This document shows positions 1 to 64,000 of a DNA stretch of 64,000 nucleotides, one piece after another (position 1 is the first letter of the stretch; each line of letters begins with the position of its first letter). A program made the position numbers and the translations under genes. This DNA is from Diphasiastrum complanatum (Eukaryota; Streptophyta; Lycopodiopsida; Lycopodiales; Lycopodiaceae), in contig CM055113.1 in NCBI GenBank assembly GCA_029204225.1, positions 10,996,234-11,060,233 on the forward strand, read 5' to 3'. A model generated the notes under the pieces. It did no database searches and was not told where the DNA came from. It saw only the letters and a program-made list of their open reading frames with translations.

Positions 1-427
1 TGATCCAGCAAGAATAGAACCAATCCTATACAAGGCAACTAAGTGCAGTAGAGTCAAGTGGATCAAGTGCAGTGAAAGACCAAGAACCTTGCACTTCAAG
101 CTCAGACTGTCCTCAAGCTGACGCTCGCACAGTCAATTTTTTTGAGAAGGATGAATGTACCTTCTACTTTGGAGATCACCCAGGTGTCCAATCAAGAACA
201 CATGCTTCTTACAAGGACAAAATGCATAGCAGCAAATTTCAATAGCCATCGTTTTAGAGGTCACAAGCAGAATCAAGTCGAAAAGGAACTCATCCGAAGG
301 ATGGATGTCAGATTGATCCACCTCAATCACAAGGTTCTACAAACGGTGGCAAGGTGGAACATCTGGTTATATCATTTTGCATGTCACCGAATTCAATGAA
401 AGACCACAATAGCCTCTCAATCTATCT

Positions 428-1134
428 GTGGAAGATCCTAAGGGAAATCTATTACCAGTGTATGCCTATCAACTTAGAGGCGATGGTGTATTGCACTCGA
501 TAAGATGCTATGGATGCGGAGGAAAACATTGTCGAGCCAAATGTCCACATCAAGGGGATCCATCAACATTCAAACTTTGTTGTGCACAATGCAGAGTTAA
601 TCTTCCATGCCGAGATTGCCCGATGAGAAATTCACAATTAGCTATGAGGCATTTGGCCTATGTAAATCGACATGCACCTATGTTGATCAACCCACCTAAT
701 GATAAAATGCCTATAAACGGAAAATCCTAGTGCAATCGGGCTATGAAATGAGTGAGGAAGAAGACAATCTGACAAAAGTCCCCAAGTACACAGAGACACC
801 CATGGGGAACCAAGTAACACCATCACTGAAAACAGATCTGGTAGAGTCTATCAAGCCAATGATAGCTGAGGAAGTCAAGAAATTGGCAACCAAGGGATTC
901 TGGCAGGTTCTGTTAGGACTCTTGGCACACTCAATGCCCAGATTTATTAGTGATGAATTACAACGGGAGCCTATGTCAATGGAGCGACGAGAAGGCAGTT
1001 CAACACGAGATCCAAGGGAAAGTGCAGTCACGCAGCCTTCAAATGAGAAGTGCACTGGCAAAGGGAAGACTAAGGTGGATGATTACCCTTCGACGAACAA
1101 GATTCAACCAAAGTTTGATTGTTTAACAAAATAG
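428..1134 (+). pseudogene. Zinc-cluster ORF pair, possible retroelement gag remnant
   Basis: Two abutting open frames (428-730 and 730-1134). The first, about 100 codons, has two cysteine-rich clusters: CYGCGGKHCRAKCPH, which resembles a loose CCHC zinc knuckle, and CCAQCRVNLPCRDCPM. The second is charged and Ser/Lys-rich with no domain I recognise. Zinc knuckles followed by a charged region are typical of retroelement Gag proteins, so a gag remnant is the best guess, but the double cluster is not the standard copia or gypsy form and no protease or reverse transcriptase follows. The left inverted repeat of the histone element starts about 180 bp downstream. Bases 1-427 hold short open frames only, with no recognisable content. 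A fragment of a host zinc-finger gene is the alternative. Confidence 0.3.
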
Positions 1135-1317
1135 CAGACCACTCAACCAATGCCAAATCCGGTTCTATCTATTCTCAAAAGGCCAAATCCAGGGAATCGA
1201 AGCCCAAATGTCACCATACATCATCCAAATATTTCCTACGATGTATCTCCCAAACAAATTCATGCACCAAGCAGCTTTGCCCTGACATCCTATCCAATAA
1301 ATCTTGAAAGCTGATCC

Positions 1318-1366
1318 ATTAGAGGAGTTCTCAATATCAAAAAGACCCTTTGTAAAGATACTTTTA
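1318..1366. repeat. Left terminal inverted repeat of copy 1
   Basis: ATTAGAGGAGTTCTCAATAT followed by CAAAAAGACCCTTTG. The first about 35 bases match the ends at 40167 and 63385 and, reversed, the right end of the MITE at 63759. The subterminal sequence (about 1369-1450, with the CCAATCAAAA and TTTGAAATCTA blocks) is also shared with the MITE. Confidence 0.8.
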
Positions 1367-1641
1367 TTTATTTTTCTTTAGTTTCGACCATCACCAGGCC
1401 CAATCAAAATGCACAGATTTGAAATCTACGTAACGTAGTTCAAATTAACTGAGAAATAAAAATGCAATATAGAAAACTTTGAAATTTGTGTCCGGGCAGG
1501 ACGTATCCCATTGGTTTCTTCTTCCTGCCCAACACGTGCTAATCTGCCCAACGTCAATACCTCAAGTTAAATTTACTTGACTATGCTGGTTAGTATAATG
1601 ATATTTTCTAACTATACTAGTTAAAGTTATAGAAATACAGT

Positions 1642-3152
1642 ATGTACAGTTACATAAAATATGGTATACGTAGTAATTGTGACTATGTTGGCATTCACAT
1701 TAGATTAAATGTGATACGAAAAATTGAAATTAAGTATCATATCAAAGAGATTTTTGGCGCCCAAGCTTTGAAAATAGCAATGGCAAGGAGACCCAGATCT
1801 ACAATCGAGTCTGTGATTCAACACAATGAAAAAGATGAAGCTGATAACTGGAAGCCAACAAAATATACGAAGAATTCATGGGTATTGCTACATCCATCAT
1901 CAAAGGGCAATTTTCGACAAAAGAAAAGAGCAAAAATGACTTACAAATCTTATTGGAAAGCAAAAATTTTGGAGTTTAAGACTATCTCGGGAGGTCAATC
2001 GATATCAGAAGTCTTAGTACAACATGTATATATGCATTTAGAAATCAAAGTACATGATATCAATCCTCATGATCATAAAAAATGTAATTATAAGTATATC
2101 AAAACATATGCACTCTACAACAATCATAGGTGATTTTCTTTATTAATGCTCTTTAGATTATGATTTAAATGCTTCAACATTGTTTTTTTCTTTCAGATTT
2201 ATATCCATCATGCATAAGTGAATGGGAGCCTGCACAATCACTTGCAAGAATATTAGACGTGATTCACTCTGATGTTGGAAAGCTGCAATACAGAGGAAGA
2301 AGTCCAAAGGAACTTGCAGATTGTGGTATCTATTTTTATGAATCTTTATATACGCCACAAACAGATGGAGGTTTTGGCAAGTTCGAAGCAATTCCATTGC
2401 CTAGTTTTCAAAGTGATGAGTGGCCTACTCTTGACAATATTGTTTCTGAATCCTTGAGATGTAAGCTACTCATTGATATTAGAAATGCTATGAAGATAAG
2501 CACAGGCTCAAAAATTGTTCACCTAAGTTGGTTTATCTCATTACATATATTTGTTGATTTTTTCTTGAGTGCTAGTGCTCGTAGGACACCAACTTTATTT
2601 GTTTGCAAGGATTTATCAGATGAGACTTTGTCAGATCTCATGGATCAAGGCTGGGATAGTAAAACAAATAATGACACAGAATGCAGGATTAAAAAGTCCT
2701 CAATGATCTTTCGTTATCATATCGAAAAGCAAATGCTCAATCTCACATTTAGATACCAGAGATACAAGAAAATTGAAGGTACATGGCTACCACTGGATCA
2801 AGACTTTGAACTAAATGGTCACACAAACTGAATGGAAATAAGCATTATCTATAATGAGGAATATTTGACTATGGTTGAGGTCGAAGAGCATTGGAAGCTT
2901 AATTTTATCAGAATAGAGCTCATGCTATTACAAACCAATCTACCAACATATTTCAGATTTATCATCAACGGAAGACTTGTAAGTACTTTATGTTTATTGC
3001 CATTTCAAAATAGAACAAAATAATTGAAAATGTCATCATTTACAATTGCACATGCACTAATATTTGTCATGTCACAGATGGGAAAAAGACAGGAGCTGAT
3101 AACATGCTGCAAAGATCTACCTACAACAATCACCATTGTGGGAGAACAATAG
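1642..3152 (+). pseudogene. Histone element gene A; unknown protein with weak BAH-like stretch
   Basis: Open segments lie at 1642-2133 and 2169-2831, then a shifted frame to a GTAAGT donor near 2980 and a last exon at 3078-3152 after TCACAG. A TTTCTTTCAG acceptor precedes the second segment. Residues about 65-150 of the first segment run from KNSWVLL through YWKAKILEFK to EVLVQHVYMHLEIKV. That order (start strand, then xxAKIlEf, then VxVqxvYxhlEi) recalls BAH domains, which read chromatin; the similarity is by eye and weak. The second segment matches nothing I know. A diverged copy in reverse at 46820-47887 keeps the same frames, which supports past coding. Its 3' end converges on the H3/Ulp1-like gene. 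The exon joins do not stay in frame here, so this copy is broken. Confidence 0.5.
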
Positions 3153-3347
3153 TTTCAAATAAATTTTAGTAAAAGTCTGTGTATACACTCTTTCATTCAA
3201 TAAATGAAAGCCCAAGTTGGGCATCAATACATGTATTTTGTGCTCCCAAATTCATAAAATGGAACAACATTTGATATATCAATGTATATTTTTCTATGAA
3301 TTCTATACATGTGCAATCTATTTCTATTCTATGCTATCTGTATTGTT

Positions 3348-4969
3348 TTAATCTCTATTTAGTATAACTACATCATCCTTTGCACCATCATCAATAACGA
3401 GAGGTTGAAGCCTTGCCCTAGCCAGTATACTCAGGATAATTTCTTGTCTAAATTTGTACACCTGGCTTGATGTGTACTCAGGAAGTGTAAACTGCAAGAT
3501 AGAACATTCATGTATTAGTTATGGCTAAAAACATCAACAAAATGGAAAACTAATCATGATTCCAAAAATCAGAATAAACAAAATTTATTACCTTAGAAAT
3601 ATCAACATCTTCCTGAAGGTTAAACCACTGAAAAAATAACTTGGCATTGTATAATGTGTACCACCCACAGCTGAATGAATCATTTTGCTGGGGTGACTGC
3701 AAAAAAATTCAGCACACAAGAAATAAATTATGAAAGAGAATGAATTAGAATAAAACAAATACATTAGAATACTAATTTCAAAATGCTATTAAGAAAGACA
3801 TAATTTACCTCCAAACTGACGATCTACCAGTCCACAGAATGGGGAACATCTGTAGGAATATATTTACATAAATATGGAAGGTATATATCTACATCCATAT
3901 GCGTATTGCTCGTTGTATTCATCTTGACACAAAAAGCTTTAGCATAAAACAACAAGAAGCATTTAATATATCTTACTTGGTATGATATTGTTGCTAGTGT
4001 GAATTCACTAGTCAGACACTGTGACAATGTGTCATTATTCTCCTTGAAGGCCTGAAGCAAAAAGTTACTCAGCACCAGCAACTCATTGGATGAATCTCTT
4101 GCAATGTCATATTGCAAGAGTGTAAGCCCAGACTCTATCACAGGATCATTGATAGAAGCATGTCTGTCTTTGAGATCCAGACAATCAAGAACTCTATAAT
4201 CTATACTAAAATCAAGTTCATCTGGTCTAAAACAAAAAGGAGTACCAATTGTATCTATAGCATCGGATATGTCCTTCTCAAATTTAGGATAATCATCGGA
4301 ATCTATATATGTATAAAAATTTGGAGAAGGAGGAGGAGGTGGATGTGTAGTATCTACAAGAATTAAAGAGGTATCCAAAACAGATGTAGCTATATTTACA
4401 ACGGTATCAAGAGCAGCGTTATCTACAATTGATTCCAGGTTAGGCTTCACAGATTCTATGGTGTCTACCCTCCTTACTTTCTTCGGAGCTCTCTTGGGTG
4501 CTACCTGCTTCCTAGGACGCTTGGTAGGAAGATCAGTCCTATATAGAGGAGTTGGTCTGGGAGCAACAAGCTGAGATACGTGTAATTTGCAAAACCTCTC
4601 CCTCATTCTCATCAGGAGCTGAAAATCCTTGGGCATTATGGTGACTCTCTTGGAATGGATTGCAAGCAAAAATGAATCTTCAAAAAAAAGGCTCATGTAA
4701 TCTTCAACAGCCTCCTGAAGGCACTGAAGAGCACTGGGTGTGAATCTAACCAGCTGTCCGAGATCATTTCTAGTTATGTTTCGGATAGCAAGTTAGAATG
4801 GAGCTCTTGGAATCAACAGAGCGGTTGATCTCTGATACTTATGTATTTCAGAGAGCCACCTGCTGCGGTTGCGTGTTCTAGGTCTAGCGGGAGGTGTAAT
4901 GGCAACCGCAGGAGCTGAGGACGAGCCAACAGAGAAGAAGTCCCTCATTGTCTGCTTTCTCCTATCCAT
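3348..4969 (-). pseudogene. Histone H3-like domain fused to Ulp1/C48-like peptidase segment
   Basis: I read three exons on the minus strand: 4969-3809, 3696-3592 and 3491-3348. All junctions are GT-AG, phase 0 and preceded by TTGCAG acceptors; together they make 469 codons. Residues about 42-125 are a histone H3 fold: SEIHKYQRSTALLIPRAPF (alpha-N/alpha-1), RFTPSALQCLQEAVEDY (alpha-2), then FFEDS and AIHSKRVTIMPKDFQL (loop 2/alpha-3). Canonical H3 has AIHAKRVTIMPKD. The N-tail starts MDRRKQT, keeping Lys-Gln-Thr at the K4 position but no ARKS motif. A basic, Pro-rich linker follows (KRPRKQ, KRAPKKVRR). Exon 1 ends YIPTDVPHSVDW, and exon 2 begins SPQQNDSFSCGWYTLYNAKL, like the Gln and Cys of Ulp1-type (C48) peptidases; the usual His-Trp and Asp are not clear. 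Two in-frame stops, TAA at codon 59 (4793-4795) and TAG at codon 382 (3824-3826), break this copy. The fold call is strong, the peptidase call moderate and the function unknown. Confidence 0.85.
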
Positions 4970-5767
4970 GGAAGTGTACTATGGGATAGCAGACTTGTGC
5001 GTGATGACTAGGATGAGCAGGGAAGGATGATAAAGCCCTTGTAGAGGACCGATATGTACAGACAGAATGCACGGTATATCTGTGCAAGCCGAATATAAGA
5101 GAAATAGATTAGTACAGAAGAAGGATGCACAAGTGTAATACGAGGAGACACATAGGCAGATGTATTGGACCTGTGCACATGGAAGGCGGAAGGAAGAATA
5201 TCGATTGTGAAGGATGCGCACAAGTGCGATATGCGGAGAAAAAAAAAGTGAAAAAAATTCATCGAAGTTTGTGATTTTATATCGCGGTACGCACGTGCAA
5301 AAGAACGTCCTATCACACGTGTGGGACTTGTACGGTCACATGCGAGAGCAACACATGTCACCCTGTCACTTTACACGTGTGTGTATGAGCAAATGCGAGC
5401 GTGACACATGTTGTCGAACAAACGAATGAACACGAGACACGTGTCCAGGTGTCACCTCACACGTTCCAGCGCCTGTAGTCCAATTCAAAGTAGACACGTG
5501 TCCTTTGACCGTTGACCACACATGTGAAAATTTAGTATAAATGGCACGAAACCCGATAATTTTTTTACCTTTTTCGTTCTCAAAATTCACGACATATTGC
5601 TCTTGTGCGTGCGCATTGTTGTCTGTTTGTTTGCAACGATACCTACTTGCGCACAAGTGCGATATTTAGTATCTACCTGCCGTACATATCCCTCTTGTGC
5701 GCGATCTTGAGAGTTAGTTTTGTTTCAGTTCTCCCTCGTGCACAAGTGCGATATCTACATTACTTCC
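4970..5767. promoter_or_regulatory. Divergent promoter region with G-box-like ACACGTGT array
   Basis: This lies between the start codons of the H3/Ulp1-like gene (-) and gene C (+). Four ACACGTGT palindromes occur near 5313, 5372, 5444 and 5493, plus GCACGTGC near 5290 and several ACACATGT variants. ACGTG cores are the G-box/ABRE class bound by plant bZIP and bHLH factors. TTGACCGTTGACC near 5508 is a paired W-box. TATAAATGG near 5536 is a good TATA box for the plus-strand gene. ACAAGTGCGATAT occurs three times (near 5220, 5653 and 5740), with weaker forms near 5130. The motifs are seen directly; their activity is inferred. Confidence 0.55.
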
Positions 5768-7327
5768 ATGCCCTCTTCCTCAGGATCCTCACAAGATTCA
5801 GGCTTGAGTTCATTTCTTACTGAATTTGGAATTACTAAAAATCTAGACTACTTCCACAGCCTATTCAGGCCATATCTACATGATTTCAGGATTGCACAAC
5901 CAAATTCTGACGTATTTTATGAACATTATGTTAGATTCAGAGATATACTTAGTAAGCCTGTTTTCTCCATAGGTTCACTCCAGTACATGCATTATACTGA
6001 TCTTTGTTCATTTTTTTTCAGCTTTATAGACTAGATAGAATGTTCACCAAATTGTTTGATCTTTTCAAAAGCAGTTCAATGTGTCCTTATTGCAACAAGA
6101 AATGTCAATTGGTTGAATATCAGAGTGGTTTCATACTTTTCTTGTTAGTTCAGATCCTAGATGATGAGGAAGATTCTGTTGCTGACCCTCCTTTTGCATC
6201 ATCTCCTGTTCAGTTAAGGATATCAGTCACTTCCTTATCGACACTCCTGATAAGGAAAGTGACTTTATTGATGTAAATATTGATGCTCTCCGGGATTCTT
6301 TTATTGGCCAAAATACAGCTGCTAATGAATCGATCCCTATAGAGGAGTCTAAATGTCTTTTCAATTTTTCTGTATATTATATTAACGATGATGTATATCT
6401 TACTACTGTTGATTTATGTAAATTTTTTGACTATCGTGAAGATGAGGTTCTATGTTTATTATCCGGCACAATTTTCAAATTCTCTGACTTTGTAGATTTT
6501 GAAACAAATGACCTTGTTGTTGGTATTGATTTTGACTAAGTAAGTTTTTTGTAATGGATGGAAGATACAAAACATTATCAAGATCTATCCTTTTAGAGGG
6601 ACTTATGATCGGTGAAGAATGCTTGACTAAGACGTTATCAAATATTGCTAAGGATGGGCGAGGCAGACCATTCGACGAAGAATTCACGGCATTTCAATCC
6701 CAAATTGGCTTTCCTCGTCCATCATCAATGCATTTCACTGATAATTTCACTTCAATACGTGGTCATTATATTGATCATCCTGATCTGGTTGTTGTTGATC
6801 ATGAAGAATGTGTAAGTGTTTAAACTTTCTTGCATTAGGATGTTTTCAATCACTGAATGTGTTTTTTCTAACATATTTTCTATTGCAGGATGCTCTCATA
6901 ATTGATGATTTTGTTGCGAGACAAGGTGGTTTCAAACAACACGCATCCTCGTTCCAGAGGGATAGTGGACTTGGCCACTATCTTAGGCATTTCCTGAAGA
7001 ATGAGATCTGTGTTGCTCATTCCAAGCTGAGCCTATTTGGGGAGAGTCTTATAATGGCAATTAAATCTTTATCATTTTACCTAGGAGGACATAAATTTGT
7101 TAAGACAAATAAGATCATTTTTTTTCAAAAGATCTTATGTTTTGAACATTTTAGGTTTTACTGATGGGAATGTTTCTTTAAGGGGTTCCCATTATTCATT
7201 GTATTCCACTTATATTGAGCTTAGTGGAAATAAGAATAATGCACATCTATTAGATGCATACACTAGCAGAGAATTTCTTCATGACAATACTACCATAGAA
7301 TTTGACACACGATCTGATGATGAATAG
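5768..7327 (+). pseudogene. Histone element gene C; unknown protein, interrupted frame
   Basis: Starts ATG at 5768 (MPSSSGSSQDSG), 230 bp after a TATA box. Coding-like segments are 5768-5972, 6022-6210 (with a CPYC pair in SSSMCPYCNKKCQ), 6186-6539 (open without ATG, acidic) and 6554-7327. In the last, an intron 6812-6888 (GTAAGTG to TTGCAG, phase 0) joins HEEC to DALIIDDFVARQGG. A one-base shift near 7120 falls in a run of eight T; the second copy at 45361-45581 has TTTTTG there and reads through to the same end, SREFLHDN then DDE-stop. I recognise no domain. It faces the histone gene across a shared promoter region, so the two may be expressed together. Confidence 0.45.
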
Positions 7328-7529
7328 TTGACACTTTGTATTTTGTTATAATACAATCAATACATTTACATTGAGTATTTCTCCTCTCTTGTTCAATGAA
7401 TTTGCAAAGCAATTCTGAACATGTCATGATTTGATGACAATGATGACCTTTTGCTCAGCAATCATCTAATCTTCTCTTCCTGTATGAACTTGCATGATTT
7501 TCTAAACTTGTTCTACATACATTTCAATG

Positions 7530-8622
7530 TTTTCAAATCACTTGCTAAGTGCCATTCAACATTGAAGTCTCCAACTCCTACAACATTGAGAAATCCTCCA
7601 TCCATATGGTCTTGGATGATCCTAGGATAAGATCTTCTTGAGAATATCCATGATAATATGTCATGATCCTCCTTCATCACCTGTCCAAAGAATTAATCAG
7701 ACTTAGTTTACAATGAATTAATACTATTCAATGAATGTAATGTAATAATGAGGCTAGTTACCTGAAATGTTGCCAACTAGCATATATCATTTTCTGACTG
7801 GACACTGAATCTGAAATCTTCTTGGTTCTCTGTTTGTGATAGAGCACCATTCATGAGAGTTATACTAACCCTCTCCATCTTTTGCCCTTTCACAATTTTT
7901 GACTCATCTAACTTAAGTACTATGATTATTTTGCCATTTACCTTTTCATAGGTTATATCATAGAATGTGACGATGTATCTCAGCAAGTAATTTAGATCAA
8001 CAAATAAGTTGTTTGATGAATTGTAGAATATCGATCTTCCATCAATTTCATACACCTCCTCAATATGAAATGGAGTTCCAGTGATCTTATGCATACCTAT
8101 GTTTAATGTATCCCTCTCTTTCTTCAAGTGATATGTCCTAGGGATTGGAAATTTTCTAATTTGAACTTGCTTAAAAGTTTCTCTAATTAGTTTAAATATT
8201 GTTGCATATGCTTCCTTGCTAATACCTGCAAAATCACAAGCACCCTAAACTATAGTCTTGTCTACAATTGTTTGAATGTCCACCATCAAAGACTCTACTC
8301 TACTCTATTGTTCATCATGATACGCTCAATGGATTTGCAAGTCAATATTGTGCCCAATGACATTCCTAGTAAATCATTGTCTTTAATATTCCGAGGAGCT
8401 ACTAATGCAGATCTGCAAAAAAAACAGATAGTTAACAGAATATCACCATAGCTGAAATTAAATCCAAATGTCATTGAAAAACTTACAAAAATCAGAATAT
8501 GCTTACTTGAATGCACAGATTTTTCTATTTCAATAACCTCCTTTTGAAAGCGTTTGAATATCCTTGCAACTTTGTCGCTTTTGCTTCTTACTTTCAGCCT
8601 TCTTCTTTGCCAAATCCACATC
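7530..8622 (-). pseudogene. Histone element gene B fragment; putative DDE-type transposase, copy 1
   Basis: Reads on the minus strand from a basic coil region (near 8620-8520), across an intron (about 8412-8503), to VAPRNIKDNDLLGMSLGTIL, and on to the frame at 7777-8127 with IIIVLKLDESKIVKGQK and RVSITLMNGAL. It parallels 41260-42370 of copy 2. It is cleaner than copy 2 in places: it keeps Gln where copy 2 has TAA near 41725, and Glu where copy 2 has TAA at 42066. It stops short near 7530, where a deletion removes the CxxC half. The transposase call rests on copy 2 and on the element ends, not on a family match I can name. Confidence 0.5.
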
Positions 8623-8848
8623 CTTCAATGCTGGCTCTCAAAGCTTCACGCTTTTTCCATTTGCATTTGCAGCTTCTTGATTCTATCATGAATGCCATCT
8701 GTAAGTCATGTCCAATCCAAAAATAGTTGTCCTTGATTATCATTCCATGTGATCGCGCAATCTTATCCCTATCAGGTATCCCAACATCATCCTTGATCTT
8801 GAAGATCTGACCATCTACCCTGTAGTGCCCTTCTTGTATTTTTCCAAG
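8594..8848 (-). CDS. Unidentified ORF at the broken end of copy 1
   Basis: Open frame of 84 codons running LGKIQEGHYRVDGQIFK, DDVGIPDRDKIARSHG, then a Cys-rich stretch ESRSCKCKWKK, ending at TGA 8594. The frame continues upstream past a single TAG (8849-8851) into KLWS. It overlaps the point where similarity between the two histone element copies ends, so it either belongs to the neighbouring unit or is a diverged N-terminal exon of gene B. I know no family for it. Confidence 0.3.
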   Translation of the reverse strand, partial: LGKIQEGHYRVDGQIFKIKDDVGIPDRDKIARSHGMIIKDNYFWIGHDLQMAFMIESRSCKCKWKKREALRASIEGCGFGKEEG

Positions 8849-39475: not shown

Positions 39476-40166
39476 TATATGGACCTAGATTGATATGGAT
39501 TGAGAAGAATTCTCAAGAAGGATAACAAGGATGTACCCAACACTGTCGATAGAAAAGTAAAAAAGAAAGTGTTGGACTCCTTGAAATCAATTCGGTTGGA
39601 ACCAGATATAGTGTCATCATGAGAGACGACTGGAAGTGCAAAGCTTACGAGTCGGGCTAGGATTAAAAGGCGGAAGGAGGAATCACGTCAAACGCTAGTT
39701 CATGAGATTCCAGAAACCTTCAAGAATTACACATTAGTCTACGATGCAATAATCGCTGCAAGCACAAAGAGAACCTGATCAAAATCAGGAACTAGCAAAA
39801 CAAGCCTTCGAAGGACCTATGCGGAGACATGTCACCTATGAACTTAGTGAAGAAAAGATTGTTCATGTGGGAGAACAGTTGACATCCACTCAATTCAAGA
39901 GGCTACGTGCTGAATTGCAATTGCATTTTCCTAAATTTGTGTGTACCTAAAGGCGCTGAATTGCAATTGCATTTTCTTCTCAAATCATGAAAGTTGAGCT
40001 CTTTGTGAAGATAAGCATGCTGAACTAAAACTTTCGTGATAGATTGATCGGCATGTGATACTTTGAAATCCATTATCCTGCCTTTCCAAGAGCTTCTATA
40101 TATGGTGTTCGATCTTTTTTTTTTTTTTCCGGAATGAGCCTTTTGTAGAGGGATGCATCAAGATCC
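39476..40166. other. Broken frames, possible gypsy linker remnant
   Basis: Short plus-strand coding-like pieces without a domain, then a T-rich run (40110-40127). CGCTGAATTGCAATTGCATTTTC occurs at about 39908 and again near 39955, a short direct repeat. Confidence 0.25.
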
Positions 40167-40203
40167 ATTAGAGGAGTTCTCAATATCAAAAAGACCCTTT
40201 AAG
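40167..40203. repeat. Left terminal inverted repeat of copy 2
   Basis: Same about 35 bases as at 1318. CCCTTTAA at its inner edge matches the MITE right end even more closely. Confidence 0.8.
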
Positions 40204-40667
40204 GAATGCCATGTAGGATATAGAAAAATATCAAAATAAAAAAAACAATATTGTTTATTTGCTTGCCCCCACCACTCCCGAGGCCTCCCCAACTCCCAAT
40301 GATCTAGCCATAGTGTCTATAGTCACAGCTAAGAACTGTAAACAGTTCACAAGATAACTTGACTAAACTCAAAAATATTCCCTCCATTGGTTACGAAAAG
40401 GGCAATATTTTCACTGGATCTAGAGTATGACCGCCATCCCCAAATTCAAATAAGAAAAAATAGCAAAATGTTTACATATGCATTCCTTCCATGAGAATGA
40501 AAATATAGGTGCCATCTCCAATTATGAACACCATCATCACATTGGAATGGAAATATGAGCGCCAACTGCCTATTGGAATGAAAAAATAAGCGGCATTTCC
40601 AAATTTGAATCAAGCATACAAGCATGGAGATTGGATTGATCGTACAGAGTATATAATATAATCAAGG

Positions 40668-42901
40668 ATGAGTATTTTGTTTTGCTTCATAGAATTTGGT
40701 CATAGTACTTTGATGCAACTGATTACTCTATTGTTTTTTCTGATGATGACATTGTATCATCTACATGTGGATATCCCTATTGATTTGGCACCTTTGCAGA
40801 GAAGAGGAGGCAAAGGAAATCAAATATCTGCTGAGGATCATTCTTGTTACAGGGCAGAAGAAAATAAATACTTGGATTTGTGGATAGATGGAACATTATA
40901 TCCACAAGTTCCAAGCACTTTGACACATCCCACATTCTCCTCAATAACTCATTTAGTTACATGGATATGCAATGGGCATAGTGGATTACTAGGATATTGT
41001 GAAAGATTGCAGAACCATGGAAAACAACTTTATATGAATAAAGTTCACTTTTTAGAAGGTGAGTTAATTCGGATATCCTCTTATTGTCAGAATAGAGATT
41101 GTCATCTCCAAAAGACGTTAGAAGAAAATGAACAACTAAAAAAAAAATGAATCATAACAAAGATAACAATCAATACCAAATCAAAACTAGAGCAAATACA
41201 ATCAATCTTACAATCTATTCGTATTGAAAACTTACAATTATTGAAGAATGTGGAATTGACAAAGAAGAAGGCTGAAAGTAAGAAGCGAAAGCGACAAAGT
41301 TACAAGGATATTCAAACACTTTCAAAAGAAGGTTATCGAAATAGAAGGATCCGTGCATTCAAGTAAGCATATTTTGATTTTTGTAGGTTTTTCAATGGCA
41401 TTTGGATTTAATTTCAACTATGGTGATATTCAGTTAACTATCTATTTTTTTTGTAGATCTACATTAGTGGCTCCTCGAAATATTAAAGACAATGCTTCAC
41501 TAGGAATGTCATTGGGCACAATATTGACAGGCAAATCCACTGAGCATATCATGATAAATAATAAGAGTTCAAATGTAAAGTGTAAAATAACAGAGTCTTT
41601 GATGGTGGACATTCAAATTTTTTTAGTAAGACTATAGTTCAGGGTGCTTGTGATTTTGCATGTATTAGCAGAGAAGCATATGCAACAATATTTAAACTAA
41701 TTAGAGAAGCTTTTAAGCAAGTTTAAATTAGAAAAGTCCCAATCCCTAGGACATATAACTTGAAGAAAGAGAGAGATACATTAAACATAGGTGTGCATAA
41801 GATCACTGGAACTCCATTTTATATTGAGGAGGTGTATGAAACTGATGGAAGATCGATATTCTATAATTCATCAAACAACTTATTTGTTGATCTAAATTAC
41901 TTGTTGAGATACATCGTCACATTCTATAATATAACCTTTGAAAAGGTGAATGGCAAAATAATCATAGTACTTAAGTTAGATGAGTCAGAAATTTTGAAAG
42001 GGCAAAAGATGAAGAGGGTTAGTATAACTCTCATGAATGGTGCACTATCACAAACAGAGGACCAATAAGATTTCAGATTCAGTGTCCAGTCAGAAAATGA
42101 TATATGGTGGTTGGCAGTGTTTCAGGTAACTAGCCTCATTATTACATTACATTTATTGAATAGTATTAATTCTTTGTTAACTAAGTCTGATTATTTTTTT
42201 GGACAGGTACTGAAGGAGGATCATGATATATTATCATGGATATTCTCAAGGACATCTTATCCTAGGATCATCAAGGACCATATGGATGGAGGACTTCTCA
42301 ATGTTCCAAGAGTTGGAGACTTCAATGTTGGATGGCACTTAGCAAGTGTTTTGAAAACATTGAAATGTATGCATAATGTCTCTCACGGTGCTACATCAAA
42401 ACACCCTTGTTTGTACTGCATGAAAATGGCAAAAGATGTTACTAGGAGTACATGAATTACTAGAGAATATGCAAAAACAAATTGGAAGCCTGTGCATGTT
42501 TGCACTCTTCATGCAGAAGTTAGATTAGTAGAAAAGATCATTTATCTTCATATAGTTTTTGCTTGGAATACTAAGCCAACATCATTAGCAAAGGAAGCTA
42601 TCTCTTGATTAGAAGATGTTTTATCAAAAGGAGGACTTCATAAGGGACGTGTCAAAATTCAAAAAGATGAAAAGCTTTTAGGAAAGAATGGGAACATGCC
42701 AACTAAGCCAAGCATAGGAGGAGCAAAGGCACGTCGTTTCCTATCAAATCATACTGGTAACGCTTCTAATATTCAACACTCAGTTTGGACAGATATTATT
42801 GCTGCCACTCAAGACTTTGAGAAAGATGGCAAAACCAAAGTACTAAAAGTTGATGTATGGAAGAAGCTTGATAGTATGAATGCTATTTTAAGAAAACATA
42901 A
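40668..42901 (+). pseudogene. Histone element gene B, putative DDE-type transposase, copy 2
   Basis: The N-terminal part (40668-41150) has Cys and His pairs (WICNGHSGLLGYCERLQNHG, SSYCQNRDCHLQ) and ends in a Lys/Glu coil. Intron 41363-41456 joins AFK to STLVAPRNIKDN in frame; intron 42126-42206 joins VFQ to VLKEDHD. The middle has IIIVLKLDESEILKGQK and RVSITLMNGAL. The C-terminal part has VGDFNVGWHLASVLKTLKCM followed by SKHPCLYCMKMAK, then HVCTLHAEVRLVEKI. An acidic residue, a strand, a CxxC insert and a later HxxE/D helix recall the insert-bearing DDE transposases (RAG1/Transib, CMC, KDZ groups). This is inference. Stops occur at 41725, 42066, 42453 and 42606; a copia LTR ends it at 42902. 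Confidence 0.5.
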
Positions 42902-43166
42902 TGTCAACAATAAAAAATGCAACATCAAGCATTCACCATAAACAATCACCAAGTAGGGAGACGGAAGAAGAACATGCAATATCACACTATCACACTAACT
43001 TCATACTGAATATAAAATGTACATATAAACCCTGAACCCTGATAGAGAGAGAAAACCTACGAATAGACAAATAGACTAGCCTACGGCTAATTACAGCTGG
43101 TAACAACTGTCAACATTAATGTACATCGTAAACAGTAACAATGAAGTTTATCATTGATTTTTAACA
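42902..43166 (-). repeat. 3' LTR of copia 3
   Basis: 265 bp, in sense TGTTAAAAATCAATG to TGATTGTTGACA-like end (here TTTATTGTTGACA). A purine tract TTGAGGGAGAG lies next to it at 43167-43178. It inserts into gene B after CATAA. Its partner at 46265-46529 is in the opposite orientation. Confidence 0.85.
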
Positions 43167-45283
43167 CTCTCCCTCAATGATAAAATTACATTCTTCTATT
43201 CCTAATAGAGTACGAAACCTCTCAGATTTATATCTACCTAATGACTTAGTAAAAATATCTGCCATTTGATCTTCAGATTTACAAAAAGCAAGATCAATGG
43301 CTCCATCAGAAATTTTCTCTTGAATAAAATGATAATGTATTTTGATGTGCTTGGCTCGAACATGTAAAATTGGATTTTTGACAAGGTGAATGCAGCTTTG
43401 ATTGTCGCAAGATATAGTAGTCGCATCCACCTGTGGCTGACCTAAATCCACAAGCAATCCATACCGCTTCTTGTGTAGCATTGTTGAGTGCTCGATATTC
43501 AGCTTCCGTTGATGATAAAGCTACTGTAGGTTGTTTTTTGCTGCTCCATGAATTTGCAACTGTACCATAACTGAATGTATGACCACTAGTAGATCTTTTG
43601 TCATCAATATTACTTGCCCAATCGGCATTTGTATAACCTACCAACACTGGCGCTTCAGGTTGATCATACTTCAAACCAAAATTCAATGTCCCTCAAATTA
43701 TCTGAGAATACGTTTAGCAGACTTCCAGTGTGCTTGGCTAGGATCTTGCATAAATTGACTAACAACGCCAACAACATAAAAAATATCAGGTCGTGTGTGT
43801 GTCAAATAAATCAAACTACTCACCAGCTGTCTATACAAATAAGAATCCACTTTCTCAGATTCATCATATGCAATAAGCTTCATGTTGACATCCATAAGTG
43901 TACTCAAGGGCTTACAATCCTGCATATTGAACTTATAAAACAAATCTTGTGCATATTTGCTTTGTGTAAGAAAGACCATGTCTTCTTTTTGCCATACTTC
44001 AATGCCAAGACAGTAGTGCATCAATCCTAGATCACTCATGTCAAAAGCATTGGAAAGATTTAATTTGATTTGATTAATTAACCTCTCACTACTTCCTATA
44101 ATAATCAAATCATCCACATACAGCACAATGATCACTATTTCTAAATCTTGCCTTAGAATGTAAAGATTAGGATCAACATCACTCTTTACCATTCCCCTTC
44201 GCTTGAAGTGCTCATCAATGCAAGAGTACCATGCTCGTGGTGCTTGCTTCAATCCATATATGGCTTTGTTGAGTTTACAAACCAAATGATCTCTTCTTGG
44301 CTCAACAAACCCTTGAGGTTGCTCTAAATATACCTCTTCATCCAATACTCCATTAAGAAAAGCAGATTTGACGTCCATTTGCTGGATTTTCCAACCATAG
44401 AAGTAGAAATTGCAATGATAGAATGAATAGTTACCATTTTGGCTACAGGTGCAAAGGTCTCCTCAAAGTCTATACCTTCTTGCTGCTCAAAACCTCTTGC
44501 AACTAATCGTGCCTTGTACTTGTTAAGATGCCCATCCGTTCCATACTTCGTCTCATGAATCCACTTATATGTGATAGGCATCTTACCATCAGTTAGCTCA
44601 ACCAAGTCCCATGTTTTGTTCTTAGATATAGTCTCCATTTCTATTTCCATAGTTGCACGCCACTCCTTGTGTTCCTTTGCTTCGTTGAAAGTTTTAGGTT
44701 CTTGAGTCGTTAAGATGGATTCCATTAGGGCTAGATTCATCTCTAATCTTGCAAGAGGTTTTCGATTTCTACTTGATCTTCTAAGCTCTCCCCTCTCACT
44801 AGATTCGGGAGTATCTCCGTTCTTTGCACCATCTGTGACTGATAAGTACCATTTAGGTACTCTCTTGGAAATTTCAGCATCAGGCTTGCCTTTGTCCAAT
44901 GGATCAAAATCCACTTCCTTCTTGACCTATACTTTTGCTCCCTCATCAAAAGGTTCAGTGATAACTTCAGATTGTTCACCTTGGCCCATCTCGTCAAATG
45001 TAGCATCTCTAGAAACTACAAGCTTCTGTGCATTTGTGTCATACATCCTGTATGCCTTGGCCTTCTCATCATATCCAAGGAAAATACACTTGATAGCTTT
45101 TGCATCCAATTTTCTTTGTTTCTCATCAGGAATATGAGCATAAGCATCACAACCAAATACTCTCAAATGAGAAATATTAGGTTTCTTTCCAGTAACACCT
45201 TCATGAGGTGTCTTACCTTCCACGGATTTTGTAGGACACCGATTCAAGATGTGCGTAGCTGTGCAAGAGCCGAGAAATACTAG
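43161..45283 (-). pseudogene. Copia 3 integrase C-terminus, reverse transcriptase, RNase H
   Basis: From high coordinate down: integrase tail NISHLRVFGCDAYAHIPDEK and KCIFLGYDEKAKAYRMYD, then reverse transcriptase KTWDLVELTDGKMPITYKW, ARLVARGFEQQEGIDFEETF, MDVKSAFLNGVLDEEVYLEQ and YVDDLIII. RNase H has LVGYTNADWASNIDDKRSTS, ALSSTEAEYRAL and a last helix GECNFIIE. Frameshifts separate 44914/44378 and 43698/43686 segments. It breaks off at 45283; gag, protease and integrase core are missing. Confidence 0.85.
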
Positions 45284-45360
45284 CTAGAAAAGACATGCAA
45301 GAACTGTGTAAGCCTCATGGTGAATCCCAGAAGATGGAATGACCATGTAGATTGTTAAGA

Positions 45361-45581
45361 CAAATAAGATCATTTTTGTCAAAAGATCTTATGTTTTGAA
45401 CATTCTAGGTTTTACTGATGGGAATGTTCCTTTAAGGAGCTCCCATTATTCACTGTACTCTAATTATATTGAATTGAGTGGAAATAAGGATAATGCACAT
45501 CTATTAGATGCATACTCTAGCAGAGAATTTCTTCATGACAATACTGCCATAGAATCTGACACACAAGATGATGATGAATAG
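45361..45581 (+). pseudogene. Histone element gene C tail, copy 2
   Basis: From KTNKIIF through SYVLNILGFTDGNVPL to SREFLHDNTAIESD and stop, matching 7097-7327 of copy 1. The T run has five T and a G here and keeps the frame, where copy 1 has eight T and shifts. The match continues to about 45850 in the 3' flank. Its orientation is opposite to what the rest of copy 2 predicts, because it lies in the inverted segment. 45850-46264 is the part of the element deleted in copy 1. Confidence 0.65.
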
Positions 45582-46264
45582 TGGACACTTTGTATTTTGT
45601 TCGAATACAATCAATACATTTACATTGAGTATTTCTCCTTCGTCTTGTTCCATGAATTTGCATGCAATTCTGAACATGTCACACATTTACATTGAGTATT
45701 TCTCCTCTTGTGTTCAATGAATTTGCAAGCAATTCTAAACATGTCATGATTTGATGACAATGATGATTGAATGTCTTTGTTATCTTCTACTCAGCAATCA
45801 TCTAATTTTCTCTTCCTATATGAACTTGCATGCTTTTCTAAATTTGTTGTATTGTGTGGACTTTGTTATATGTCGAATCTGAACTCTGCGGTAGAACCAC
45901 TGAAACAATTGACAAATGTAATTTCATTTTTCATTGGTTCCTCCATGTTGTGTATTTCGATGAAATGTTGCTCGTGCTTGCCAATGTGATTTGTCCATCC
46001 CTTGTGATGACCATACTATCAAGCTTCCATATGTGTTTGCAAAAAATGTTGTATGATCTCTTAGTATGTGCTGCATATGTCAAAACCATAATGTTAGTCT
46101 TATGTTTGGATCTAAATATATATGAAAAATTGAAAGCATCTTGAAGAATTTATAACTAGCATGTAATGAGTGATATGATTTTCTCCCCATGCTTTTGATA
46201 CTGCATTAACAAACTCGACACAAGTCCTTTGGATAGCTTTCTTATCAATATCAGAGTATTTATT

Positions 46265-46800
46265 TGTTAGAAGTCAATGATAAACTTCATTGTTACTGTT
46301 TACGATGTACATTAATGTTGACAGCTGTTACCGACTGTAATTAGCCATAGGCTAGTCTATTAGTCTATTCGTAGGTTTTCTCTCTCTATCAGGGTTTAGG
46401 GTTTATATGTACATTTTATATTCAGTATGAAGTTAGTGTGATAGTGTGATATTGCGTGTTCTTCTTCCGTCTCCCTACTTGGTGATTGTTTATGGTGAAT
46501 GCTTGATGTTGCATTTCTGATTGTTGACATGGTATCAGAGCGGCAATAGTCTTGCATGCCTGATCAATGGATACAGCTTGTCACAGGCTCCGCAACGAAG
46601 TAAGAAAGTCCTTCATGGGAGGTGAAAGCTTGGAGAGATAAAAACGGCTGGAAGAAATCCTTCTTTGGTGTATTTTGTAGGTTTGGAGCTCAGAATTATG
46701 AGTGGGAAGATTTTTACAGTACTTCCTAGTTGTTGAGAAAAACACAGTCCCAGAGGCATCCAAAAGGCCAGGGCAGCATCAGACAGATTGAAAATCTGTT
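46265..46800 (+). repeat. 5' LTR, primer site and leader of copia 3, inverted
   Basis: LTR 46265-46529 (TGTTAGAAGTCAATG to GATTGTTGACA) is the 265-bp partner of 42902-43166 but reads on the plus strand. TGGTATCAGAGCGG at 46530 is the primer site. The leader follows to about 46800, where histone element sequence resumes. Confidence 0.85.
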
Positions 46801-46819
46801 GAGTGGAAAAAGTTTTACA

Positions 46820-47887
46820 ATATTTTTTTTAGTCTTCGTGAAAAAGATCATTTGTCAGAGAGTTGTGCCAAGAAATCTCTCATCATGAGATCTGACAAAG
46901 TCTCATATGATAAATCCTTGCAAACAAATAAAGTTGGTGTCCTACAAACACTAGCACACACTCGAGAAAAAATCATCAAATATATGTAATGAGATAAACC
47001 AACTTAGGTGAACAATTTTTGTGCCAGTGCTTATCTTCATAGCATTTCTAATATCAATGAGTAGCTTGCATCTCAAGGATTCAGAAACAATACTGTCAGG
47101 AATAGGCTACTCATCACTTTGAAAACTAGGCAATGGAATTGCTTCGAGCTTGCCAAAACCTCCATCTGTATGTGGCGTATATAAAGATTCATAAAAATAG
47201 ATACCACAATCTGCAAGTTCCTTTGGACTTCTTTCTCTGTATTACAGCTTTCCAACATCAGAGTGAATCACGTCCAATATTCCTGCAAGTGATTGTGCTG
47301 GCTCCCATTCACTTATGCATAATGGATATAAATCTGAAAAAAGAAAAACAATGTTGAAAGGAATTAAATCATATGAAGAGCATCAATAAAGAAAATCTCC
47401 TATGATTGTTGTAGAATGCATATGTTTTGATATACTTACAATTATATTTTTGATGATCATGAGGATTGATATCATGTACTTTGATTTCTAAATGCATATA
47501 TACATGTTGTACTAAAACTTCTGATATCGATTGACCTCCCGGGATAGTCTTAAACTCCAAATTTTTTGCTTTCCAATAAGATTTGTATGTCATTTTTGTT
47601 CTTTTCTTTTGTCGAAAATTGCTTTTTAATAATAGATGCAGCAATACCCATGAATTCTTCATATATTTTGTTGGCTTCCGATTATCATCTTCATCTTTCT
47701 CATTGTAAAGAATCACAGACTCGACTGTAGATCTGGATCTCATTGCCATTGCTATTTTCAAAGCTTGGGCGCCAAAAATCTCTCTGATATGATACTTAAT
47801 TTCAATTTTTTGTATCACATTTAATCTAATGTGAATGCCAACATAGTCACGATTACTGTGTATACCATATTTTATGTAACTGTACAT
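46820..47887 (-). pseudogene. Histone element gene A, copy 2
   Basis: Minus-strand frame 47369-47887 repeats the gene A start (MYSYIKYGIHSNRDYVG) and the BAH-like stretch (YWKAKNLEFKTIPGG, EVLVQHVYMHLEIKV) of copy 1 with few changes. 46820-47360 matches 2200-2640 of copy 1 but the frame is less open. The 5' flank to 48190 matches copy 1 to its end. Confidence 0.5.
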
Positions 47888-48190
47888 ACCGTATTTTTAT
47901 AACTGTAACTAGTATAGTTAGTAAATTTCATTATACTAACCAGCATAGTCAAGTAAATTTAACTTGAAGTATTGACGTCGGACAGATTAGCACGTGTCCG
48001 GCAGGAAGAAGAAACCAATGGGATAAGTCCATGCTACCCGGACAAAAATTTCAATGTTTGCTATATTGTATTTTTATTTCTTAGTTAATTTGAACTATGT
48101 TACATAGATTTCAAATCTGTGCATTTTGATTGGGCCTAGTGACTGTTAAAACTAAAGAAAAAAAATAAAAGTATCTGGAACTCCTCTAAT

Positions 48191-48523
48191 GCATTGATAT
48201 TTTTGATATATTCCTGGTATCCATTGATCTTTTGTATTTTTTTCATTACAAATTATGTGTAGCCAGTAGTCCAAAATATGTGTACGAAAGTTGAGAACAG
48301 AGAGAATGAGAGGTAAACCTAAGAATGACAATCCAAAATAAGAGATAGAATGAAGAGAATGACAAGTATACCTAAGAATGACAAGAGGTTCCTAAACTAC
48401 AAGGATTAGATAACTATAGTTTATGACTATTGATGTCAAATCAACCTCAAGTGTACAAAGGACAGTACCTGTGGTCCAATCCAGCCCGACGGGATGTTTG
48501 AAAATCACGAAAATTTGGCTGGG
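48191..48523. other. Gap between element and copia 4a
   Basis: Nothing recognised. AGAATGA and CCTAAGAATGACA recur, giving an imperfect short direct repeat at about 48300-48400. Confidence 0.4.
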
Positions 48524-62837: not shown

Positions 62838-64000
62838 AATTAGTGTGACCTAGGAAGACGTAAATTTCCTTCACTATTGCAGGTAAGGGCATTTCAACTA
62901 TTACCTTGATCTTTGAAGGATCGGTAGAAATACCATCCTTTGAAATGATATGTCCGAGTACTACCCCATGGGTGATCCAGATTTGACACTTATCAGGGTT
63001 GAGTGAAATTCCAAACCTACGGCAGCGAATGAAGATTTTTTCTAATGCTTCTGGTGCTTGTCGGCTGAAGAATGTACACCCAAATCATTGAGATAAATCT
63101 CGACAATCCGATGTAACAGGTCTTGAAATGCCATTTGCATGACCCTCTGAAATGTTGAAGGGGCGTTACGTTATAAGCGTAAATCCCATTCTCTGTTGCA
63201 AAGACTGTCTTGTGTCTATCTTCAGGGCCTAATTGGATTAAGAAATAGCCATTGAAAATCGTCTAGGAAGCTGAAATCTTCAGCTCCTGCCATTTTCTCA
63301 AGGATTTGTGTAGTTAAGGGCAAGTGGAAATAGTCTTTTTTCGTAACTGCATTAAGATTCTTTAGATCGACGCAGATACGAAGCATTAGAGGAGTTCTAA
63401 ATCCAAAAAAGACCCTTTGTAAAGATTCTTTTTATATTTTTTCTCAAATGTTTCTTACACATGGACCAATCAAAACACTCAAATTTGAAATCTAAATAAC
63501 ATAACTTTTTGAGTCCACATTTTGATTCCATACTAACAATGGCATAACTTTTTAGTGGTAAGTCCGAATTTAGCGGAGTTTGGTGCATTGAAAGCGCTCG
63601 ACAAGGACTTTTCAATGATATGTTACATGACATACTTCTGAGCTACGATTAAAAAGTTATGGCAAGTCAAAAGTATTAGTGTTATAATATTTTAGTAATA
63701 AAAAAGGCATCTTGCACAAATTATTAAAGGGTCTTTTTGGAAATCAAAACTCCTCTAATGCTTGCCGTTTTTCTTGGGTACGATCACAATGGGTGATACC
63801 CAATCAGTATGTTGGACTTCATAGATGAATCTAGCATCTAGCAATTTCTTAATATCTTCATTGATCCACTCACGATAAATAGGGTTACTTCGGTACAGCT
63901 TAGCCCGAATAGGCTTAGCGTTATGCTCTAAAGGAATCGTATGGACCATTATTTAGGGCGGGGCCCCTTTCATCTCAGTATAATTCCACGCAAATACATC
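62838..64000 (-). pseudogene. Ty3/gypsy reverse transcriptase, split by copia 5 and the MITE
   Basis: At 63762-63949 the frame reads AKPIRAKLYRSNPIYREWIN, LLDARFIYEVQHTDWVSPIV and VPKKNGK. After removing the MITE the next codons (63383 down) continue LRICVDLKN, the expected box. Further fragments to 62838 match the palm and thumb, with several stops. The gag and protease lie beyond the window. Confidence 0.85.
63385..63759. mobile_element. MITE with histone-element ends
   Basis: 375 bp, no coding. Left ATTAGAGGAGTTCTAAATCC and right (reversed) ATTAGAGGAGTTTTGATTTCC, each followed by CAAAAAGACCCTTT. The subterminal CCAATCAAAA and TTTGAAATCTA blocks match 1400-1430 of copy 1. GC flanks both sides; removing the element and one GC restores the gypsy reading frame. 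Confidence 0.85.

Follow-up and report, generated by a model that had tools for sequence, protein, structure and literature searches.

A gene encoding a histone H3 variant, a basic linker and a Ulp1-type (C48) peptidase domain in one protein was found in Diphasiastrum complanatum, where it belongs to an abundant plant DNA transposon of about 9.4 kb with 35-bp inverted termini. As the element spread, the H3 fold and the N-terminal region of the protease stayed under purifying selection, as seen in exon 1, the part of the gene on which selection was estimated. We started from a stretch of 64,000 nucleotides (the window; contig CM055113.1, positions 10,996,234 to 11,060,233), for which an earlier note had described, from the letters alone, an H3 fold fused to a C48-like segment in a transposon gene. 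This description was borne out by a sister copy, L041, in which both Pfam domains score above their cut-offs.

The H3-Ulp1 gene of the window

The window holds a damaged copy of the element with the following features.
1317..8629, no strand: damaged DNA transposon copy, right end missing, with internal deletions (aligned to the full copy L073)
1317..1351, plus strand: left 35-bp terminal inverted repeat (544 + 540 exact genome copies)
1780..3000, plus strand: gene B remnant (MARRPRSTI..., MLQHCFFLSDLY...), right limit approximate (open frames 1633-2133 and 2169-2831)
3348..4969, minus strand: H3-Ulp1 fusion gene, dead copy (stop codons and a deletion)
3351..3491, minus strand: last H3-Ulp1 exon, with stop codon 3350-3348 (homologous in the aligned copies)
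3592..3696, minus strand: exon with the Gln and Cys of a C48 peptidase (SPQQNDSFSCG; Peptidase_C48 just below cut-off)
3940..3942, no strand: scar of a deletion of ~127 bp, intron sequence and exon start with the catalytic His gone (copy alignment)
3942..4321, minus strand: N-terminal part of the Ulp1-like region (common to loci L077 and L041; selection)
4322..4600, minus strand: basic, proline-rich linker, weakly constrained (selection estimate; limits counted from the translation)
4601..4894, minus strand: histone H3 fold, cut by TAA 4795-4793 (Pfam Histone on both sides of the stop)
4895..4969, minus strand: H3-like N-terminal tail (MDRRKQTMRDFF...; family form 5/9 identical to ARTKQTARK)
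4970..5767, no strand: upstream region common to the divergent H3-Ulp1 gene and gene A (gene layout)
5768..7327, plus strand: gene A remnant (MPSSSGSSQDSGL...SDDE; open frames, copy comparison)
7511..8629, minus strand: remnant of the presumed transposase gene (homologous to L073 7392-8521)

A Pfam search, which the earlier note had proposed as a check, gave a highly significant Histone (PF00125) match for window positions 3824-4792 on the minus strand (E 2.8e-14, 53.9 bits against a cut-off of 26.4). The 58 codons before the TAA (4796-4969) give a further Histone match below that cut-off (E 1.6e-4, 22.3 bits), and the chains listed in a PDB search with the window H3 part are histone H3. The companion check against Peptidase_C48 (PF02902) was passed by L041, while window exon 3592-3696 alone reaches 19.2 bits (E 1.2e-3) against a cut-off of 20.7. 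In the window copy, the histone passes the Pfam cut-off and the peptidase falls narrowly below it; the histone and peptidase text of the frame is real and far beyond chance.

The window copy of the gene is dead, because an in-frame TAA at 4795-4793 breaks the frame inside the H3 fold, a TAG stands straight after ..HSVDW and a deletion of about 127 bp took out intron sequence together with the exon start carrying the protease His. Owing to this deletion, the reading of 260 residues up to YIPTDVPHSVDW had to be abandoned, since the frame there runs through the deletion scar and an intron remnant. The exon model proposed with it survives in its later junctions (3809/3696 and 3592/3491), which agree with the aligned copies, L040 excepted; the exon with the catalytic histidine had been missed.

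Window positions 1-1527, flank included, and 4051-6285 match the locus L013 (C22:13.5 Mb) at 96-97%, and the stop codon is common to both. These alignments mark the window copy and L013 as a segmental duplication.

An unbroken sister copy

A search of the genome (1.74 Gb, 5176 contigs) by means of the window frame scored 124 of 9241 candidates, a lower bound. Apart from the window, the long matches among these share 75-87% identity with that frame. We compared the window with 10 kb around each of four copies and with two copies whose termini lie ~9.4 kb apart. Five of these six copies (L039, L041, L042, L073 and L074) have 124-128 bp extra at window position ~3941, which the alignment identifies as intron plus the start of the exon with the protease His. 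That exon start reads DHWSLNLIS in L041 and L042, where the Trp codon is TGG; the Trp codon after the protease His is TAG in the other four of the six aligned copies.

All four exons of L041 are open, and its introns keep their GT and AG ends. The spliced query has 482 residues (479 from the Met) and matches, in one protein, Pfam Histone (E 2.8e-24, 86.1 bits against 26.4) and Peptidase_C48 (E 1.3e-7, 32.1 bits against 20.7). L041 thus supplies the further copy linking both parts in one unbroken frame that the earlier note had looked to, and it is the sole copy unbroken through all exons among the six aligned. Both parts are present in L039, L042, L073 and L074, but with stops or damaged splice sites, and L040 is without the later H3-Ulp1 exons. 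The best PDB matches of the histone part are H3. A predicted structure of H3-Ulp exon 1 (pLDDT 39.7) has helices at the histone positions, and Foldseek with this model returned nucleosome entries at ranks 1-6 (best E 0.074, none below 0.001).

Termini, genes and copy number of the element

The window element aligns to L073, a copy complete from one inverted terminus to the other, as 1317-3940, 3942-7515 and 7511-8629. Element ends that we examined read CATTAGAGGAGTTCTCAATATCAAAAAGACCCTTT, exactly or nearly so. The exact 35-bp terminus occurs 1,084 times on the two strands (reversed control, 0), and the left end with ten further bases has 399 + 380 genome occurrences at up to 3 mismatches. For a segment of 41 bases within the H3 part, 352 genome matches were counted, again allowing up to 3 mismatches (control, 0), and the copies listed, part of the 352, are spread over 22 of the contigs C1-C24. 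The full copies L073 (9451 bp) and L074 (9371 bp) are 90% identical and show four groups of open frames: gene B on the plus strand, H3-Ulp1 on the minus strand, gene A on the plus strand and, on the minus strand, a gene with DDE-like motifs that is presumed to encode the transposase.

Genes A and B gave no Pfam match over cut-off in the window pieces or in L042; a gene B exon of L042 (2321-2713) matches TnsA-like N weakly, at 16.1 bits (E 0.017) against a cut-off of 26.5. The presumed transposase likewise gave no Pfam match over cut-off among the pieces scanned, and its PDB search returned no significant match, with two at E 1.7 and 1.8. DDE-like motifs (LKLDES, GDLK, HPCLYC, LHAE, GAKAR) were read by eye in L039 and L074. 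The structure model of the transposase piece has a pLDDT of 34.7, and a transposase alignment run against viral contigs gave 28 pattern matches and no relatives.

A second copy of the element lies in the window at 40166-48191 in reverse orientation. It has no match to the H3-Ulp1 part of L073 and carries ~2.4 kb of other DNA at 42897-45351. A 377-bp MITE with the termini of the element lies at 63384-63760, inside a reverse-transcriptase frame. On contig C1 at 65 Mb, copies L070, L071 and L072 have common flanks and were amplified within a larger unit.

Target sites

Adjacent direct repeats at five two-ended copies measure 3 bases in L073 (TCA), 1 in L074, 0 in the L040 MITE, 1 in the window copy at 40166-48191 and 0 in the window MITE at 63384-63760. 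A homologous empty site in the window indicates that the L040 MITE insertion added no target bases. When the flanks of the 63384 MITE are joined, the reverse-transcriptase frame (WVSPIVIVPKKNGKLRICVDLKNLN), of Ty3 type, continues through them with no extra bases, and a 93-codon frame continues through the joined flanks of L074 in the same way. Among the first 12 matches of an empty-site search for the 63384 MITE, 10 are shorter than the joined flanks by 1 base and 2 by 4; the 1-base shortfall can be explained by a one-base shift of the reverse-transcriptase frame inside the left flank, at a distance from the junction. The first matches of the corresponding search for L074 are 8-12 bases longer at 80-83% identity, and they do not settle its target-site duplication.

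The simplest reading is that the element inserts without target-site duplication, which would be unusual for an element with terminal inverted repeats. The TCA repeat of L073 is either a result against this reading or a chance match. KIU and VANDAL MULEs have a MULE transposase and 9-bp target-site duplications; here the repeats are 0-3 bases and no Pfam transposase was found in the pieces scanned.

The H3 fold and its tail

The equivalents of H113, K115, R116, V117, T118 and D123 are invariant in 33 copies and that of L126 is kept; we take H113, K115 to T118, D123 and L126 to be contacts of the H3-H3 bundle and loop 2. The tail, D-R-R-K-Q-T-R-R-D against A-R-T-K-Q-T-A-R-K of H3, is identical at five of nine positions, a level that shuffling of L041 residues 1-35 reached 17 times in 100000, and retains R2, K4-Q-T and R8 of H3. 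The K4 equivalent is Lys in all 29 readable copies and is the sole conserved lysine in the first 37 positions, with three other tail positions being Lys in 2-3 copies. At the K9 position, 25 of 29 readable copies have Asp and none has Lys. The K9 and K27 equivalents are absent in the family of the window copy and L041 (TE1), and K4 alone is kept of the lysines K4, K9 and K27 that would mark an H3 tail.

Selection on exon 1

For 37 loci, exon 1 was projected on L041; four identical rows were dropped and 33 kept, mostly copies picked for their likeness to the window. Changes were assigned by Fitch parsimony on a FastTree tree, and N/S was normalised with a simple expectation. Across these rows, which include near-duplicate loci, N/S on internal branches is 0.24 for the H3 fold, 0.28 for the N-terminal Ulp part and 0.73 for the linker, against 0.64, 0.59 and 0.83 on terminal branches, where it stays below 1 (Fisher test, internal against terminal: p 4e-5, 0.005 and 0.65). 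For the tail, the two values are 0.58 and 0.63 (p 1.0); selection on the H3 tail itself is weak and alike on both branch classes. Changes in H3 on terminal branches number 75, 75 and 74 at the three codon positions. Of the stop codons, 26 arose on terminal and 9 on reconstructed internal branches, and stops are found in 30 of the 37 projections. The contrast between internal and terminal N/S indicates that lineages making new copies kept the H3 fold and the N-terminal Ulp part and that inserted copies then decay. This result holds for exon 1, which precedes the exons with the protease His, Gln and Cys.

The protease part

Yeast Ulp1 (1euv) aligns to the protease part with E 6e-4, its His, Gln and Cys in register, and differs in having its catalytic Asp, not conserved here, and in standing without a fused H3. 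The closest candidate by eye for the Asp is the Asn of MNS; some clan CE proteases have Asn at the catalytic Asp position. The His-Asp-Gln-Cys set of C48 active sites is thus short of its Asp, and in the window copy also of its His. Since the Asp is not conserved, the Ulp1-type domain may be inactive or may only bind SUMO.

Other transposon H3 families and origin

The locus L077 (from C13:31265900) starts MARTKQTTRPKS and continues with an H3 fold, a basic linker and the same pre-protease region. By BLASTP against L041 exon 1, its tail, H3 and linker are 38% identical (E 7e-25) and the later, pre-protease part is 28% identical over 99 columns (E 1e-9). Its tail has Pro at 9, Lys one place later and Ser at 27. 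Its first 411 residues gave no C48 match; in the genome search the open frame extends to 527 residues, and a protease core, if present, would lie past the stretch scanned. A protein search with L077, in which 107 candidates were scored (a lower bound), gave other matches over all 386 residues that are 72-88% identical. From these alignments we regard L077 as a diverged second family. Three loci (L075, L076 and L079) make up a third H3 family, whose members have a proline-rich leader, an H3 fold and KWL.DIRSYQKSVKFLIPRAPF; L079, its single member scanned, gave no C48 match.

In a tree of 21 rows, the three transposon H3 groups cluster with one another and not with host H3 or CENH3 (80/91, with long branches), which weakly suggests a position outside both. 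The tree does not place the transposon H3s with CENH3, from which they may or may not derive. The KQT of the tail is shared with H3 and the LIP.A.F motif with plant CENH3. The capture of H3 was probably old. Host CENH3 was not found by genome queries made with CENH3 sequences; these retrieved 13 canonical H3 loci, followed by diverged copies of H3. These 13 loci lie on contigs C11, C5 and C23, nine of them on C11.

Possible roles of the fusion protein

The best-fitting mechanism, in which we place somewhat less than even confidence, is an H3 substitute that would be unable to carry silencing marks, the anti-silencing role being suggested by the chemistry of the tail. The H3-Ulp1 protein would pair with host H4 and enter chromatin, or a chaperone complex, as a substitute for H3. 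Nucleosomes with this H3 could not take silencing marks at K9 and K27, where the lysines are gone. Through the fusion, the Ulp1 domain would reach this chromatin too, where it might bind SUMO attached to histones or silencing factors, or cleave it off, and the two parts together would counter silencing of the element. Among the functions floated in the earlier note (marking of chromatin, targeting of insertion, escape from silencing and cutting of SUMO conjugates), tail chemistry and selection make escape from silencing the best working hypothesis. Every step past an encoded protein with exon 1 under selection is one that we infer. The loss of K9 and K27 need not mean anti-silencing, because plant CENH3 tails are likewise without both.

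It is unlikely that the histone fold is instead a DNA-binding or dimerising module of a transposase helper, never found in nucleosomes, with a structural Ulp1 part. TE1 departs from H3 at several basic residues, among them R49, R63 and K64 in L041, which we take to be DNA contacts of H3, and the catalytic Asp is not kept; both would suit such a module, yet a simple DNA-binding role would need neither the near-invariant bundle and loop-2 residues nor the H3-like tail.

We consider it quite unlikely that the H3 part serves as a target-site tether, sitting in or near nucleosomes, or CENH3 chromatin, and guiding the transposition complex. The TE1 H3 has LIP.A.F and one extra loop 1 residue, as in plant CENH3, and in a PDB search S. 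pombe cnp1 (74.6 bits) scores nearly as high as H3 (77.0 bits). Furthermore, the 80 exact termini listed on C1 include 14 within 65-67 Mb and 27 within 95-101 Mb. Against a tether, however, three copies at 64.97-65.17 Mb have common flanks, so that the 65-Mb cluster grew at least partly by duplication; the spread of listed H3 copies over 22 contigs and the tree, with transposon H3s apart from CENH3, also argue against it. Centromere targeting, as read from the C1 clusters, is weakened by the same common flanks.

A host inhibitor is very improbable. In this reading the fusion would act during transposition as a dominant negative that poisons SUMO-dependent repair or the chaperones of host H3. 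It would have the same H3 and C48 anatomy, but nothing specific to it was found, and hundreds of copies of an inhibitor that does harm could hardly be maintained. Least probable of all is a functionless passenger, a host H3 fragment captured by chance beside a captured Ulp1 gene: capture of genes, Ulp1 included, is described for plant transposons in passages of PMC13317346 and most exon 1 projections carry stops, but along the internal branches H3 and the N-terminal Ulp part are under purifying selection and the linker is little so, and the same regions are kept in the L077 family at just 38% identity of tail and H3.

Relation to known elements and significance

We take the Spy group of PHIS transposons to have terminal inverted repeats, like the element described here, no target-site duplication, as may hold here too, and a Harbinger-like transposase; the presumed transposase here differs in having no Pfam match among the pieces scanned. 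CENH3 shares the H3 fold and LIP.A.F with the transposon H3. The variant H3.15, as described in passages of PMC10426802, resembles it in being an H3 fold with K27 replaced, and its K27H change removes H3K27me3. Both H3.15 and CENH3 are stand-alone host genes, whereas the transposon H3 is fused to a C48 domain.

Plant VANDAL transposons with VANC anti-silencing proteins and Ulp1-carrying KIU genes are described in passages of PMC13317346. The Kaonashi (KIU) genes belong to non-TIR MULE / VANDAL transposons, likewise plant DNA transposons in which an accessory gene includes a Ulp1-type domain acquired by capture (PMC13317346). The present element differs from these in its 35-bp inverted repeats, in a target-site duplication that is mostly missing and in the H3 fold placed ahead of the protease in one protein. 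The word histone occurs 0 times in the main text of that review, and no histone is named in its passages. SET methyltransferases in HarbingerS and oomycete MuDR elements and TET/JBP dioxygenases in fungal transposons are further cases, in passages of PMC12730594, of transposons with their own genes for chromatin or DNA marks, thought to be anti-silencing. Those carriers bring mark-changing enzymes, whereas the element here brings the histone itself. No transposon-borne H3 appeared among the matches listed in a literature search of titles and abstract openings, with preprints and Repbase outside its scope, and the available passages of PMC5735166 mention neither Ulp nor a transposon histone.

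Taken as a whole, a possible but rather doubtful reading is that the element makes its own K4-only H3, joined to a SUMO-protease domain, and uses it to keep its copies from being silenced, and that its inverted repeats, mostly missing target-site duplication and presumed transposase without a Pfam match define a new superfamily. Compared with known cargo (demethylation factors, SET, TET, Ulp1), what would be new is the histone itself, kept by selection and present in hundreds of copies. Gene finders could take such copies for host H3 genes. The element also makes available natural H3 variants without K9 and K27 but with K4. A transposon with such cargo would offer a direct test of whether swapping the substrate of silencing marks, rather than erasing the marks, evades silencing.
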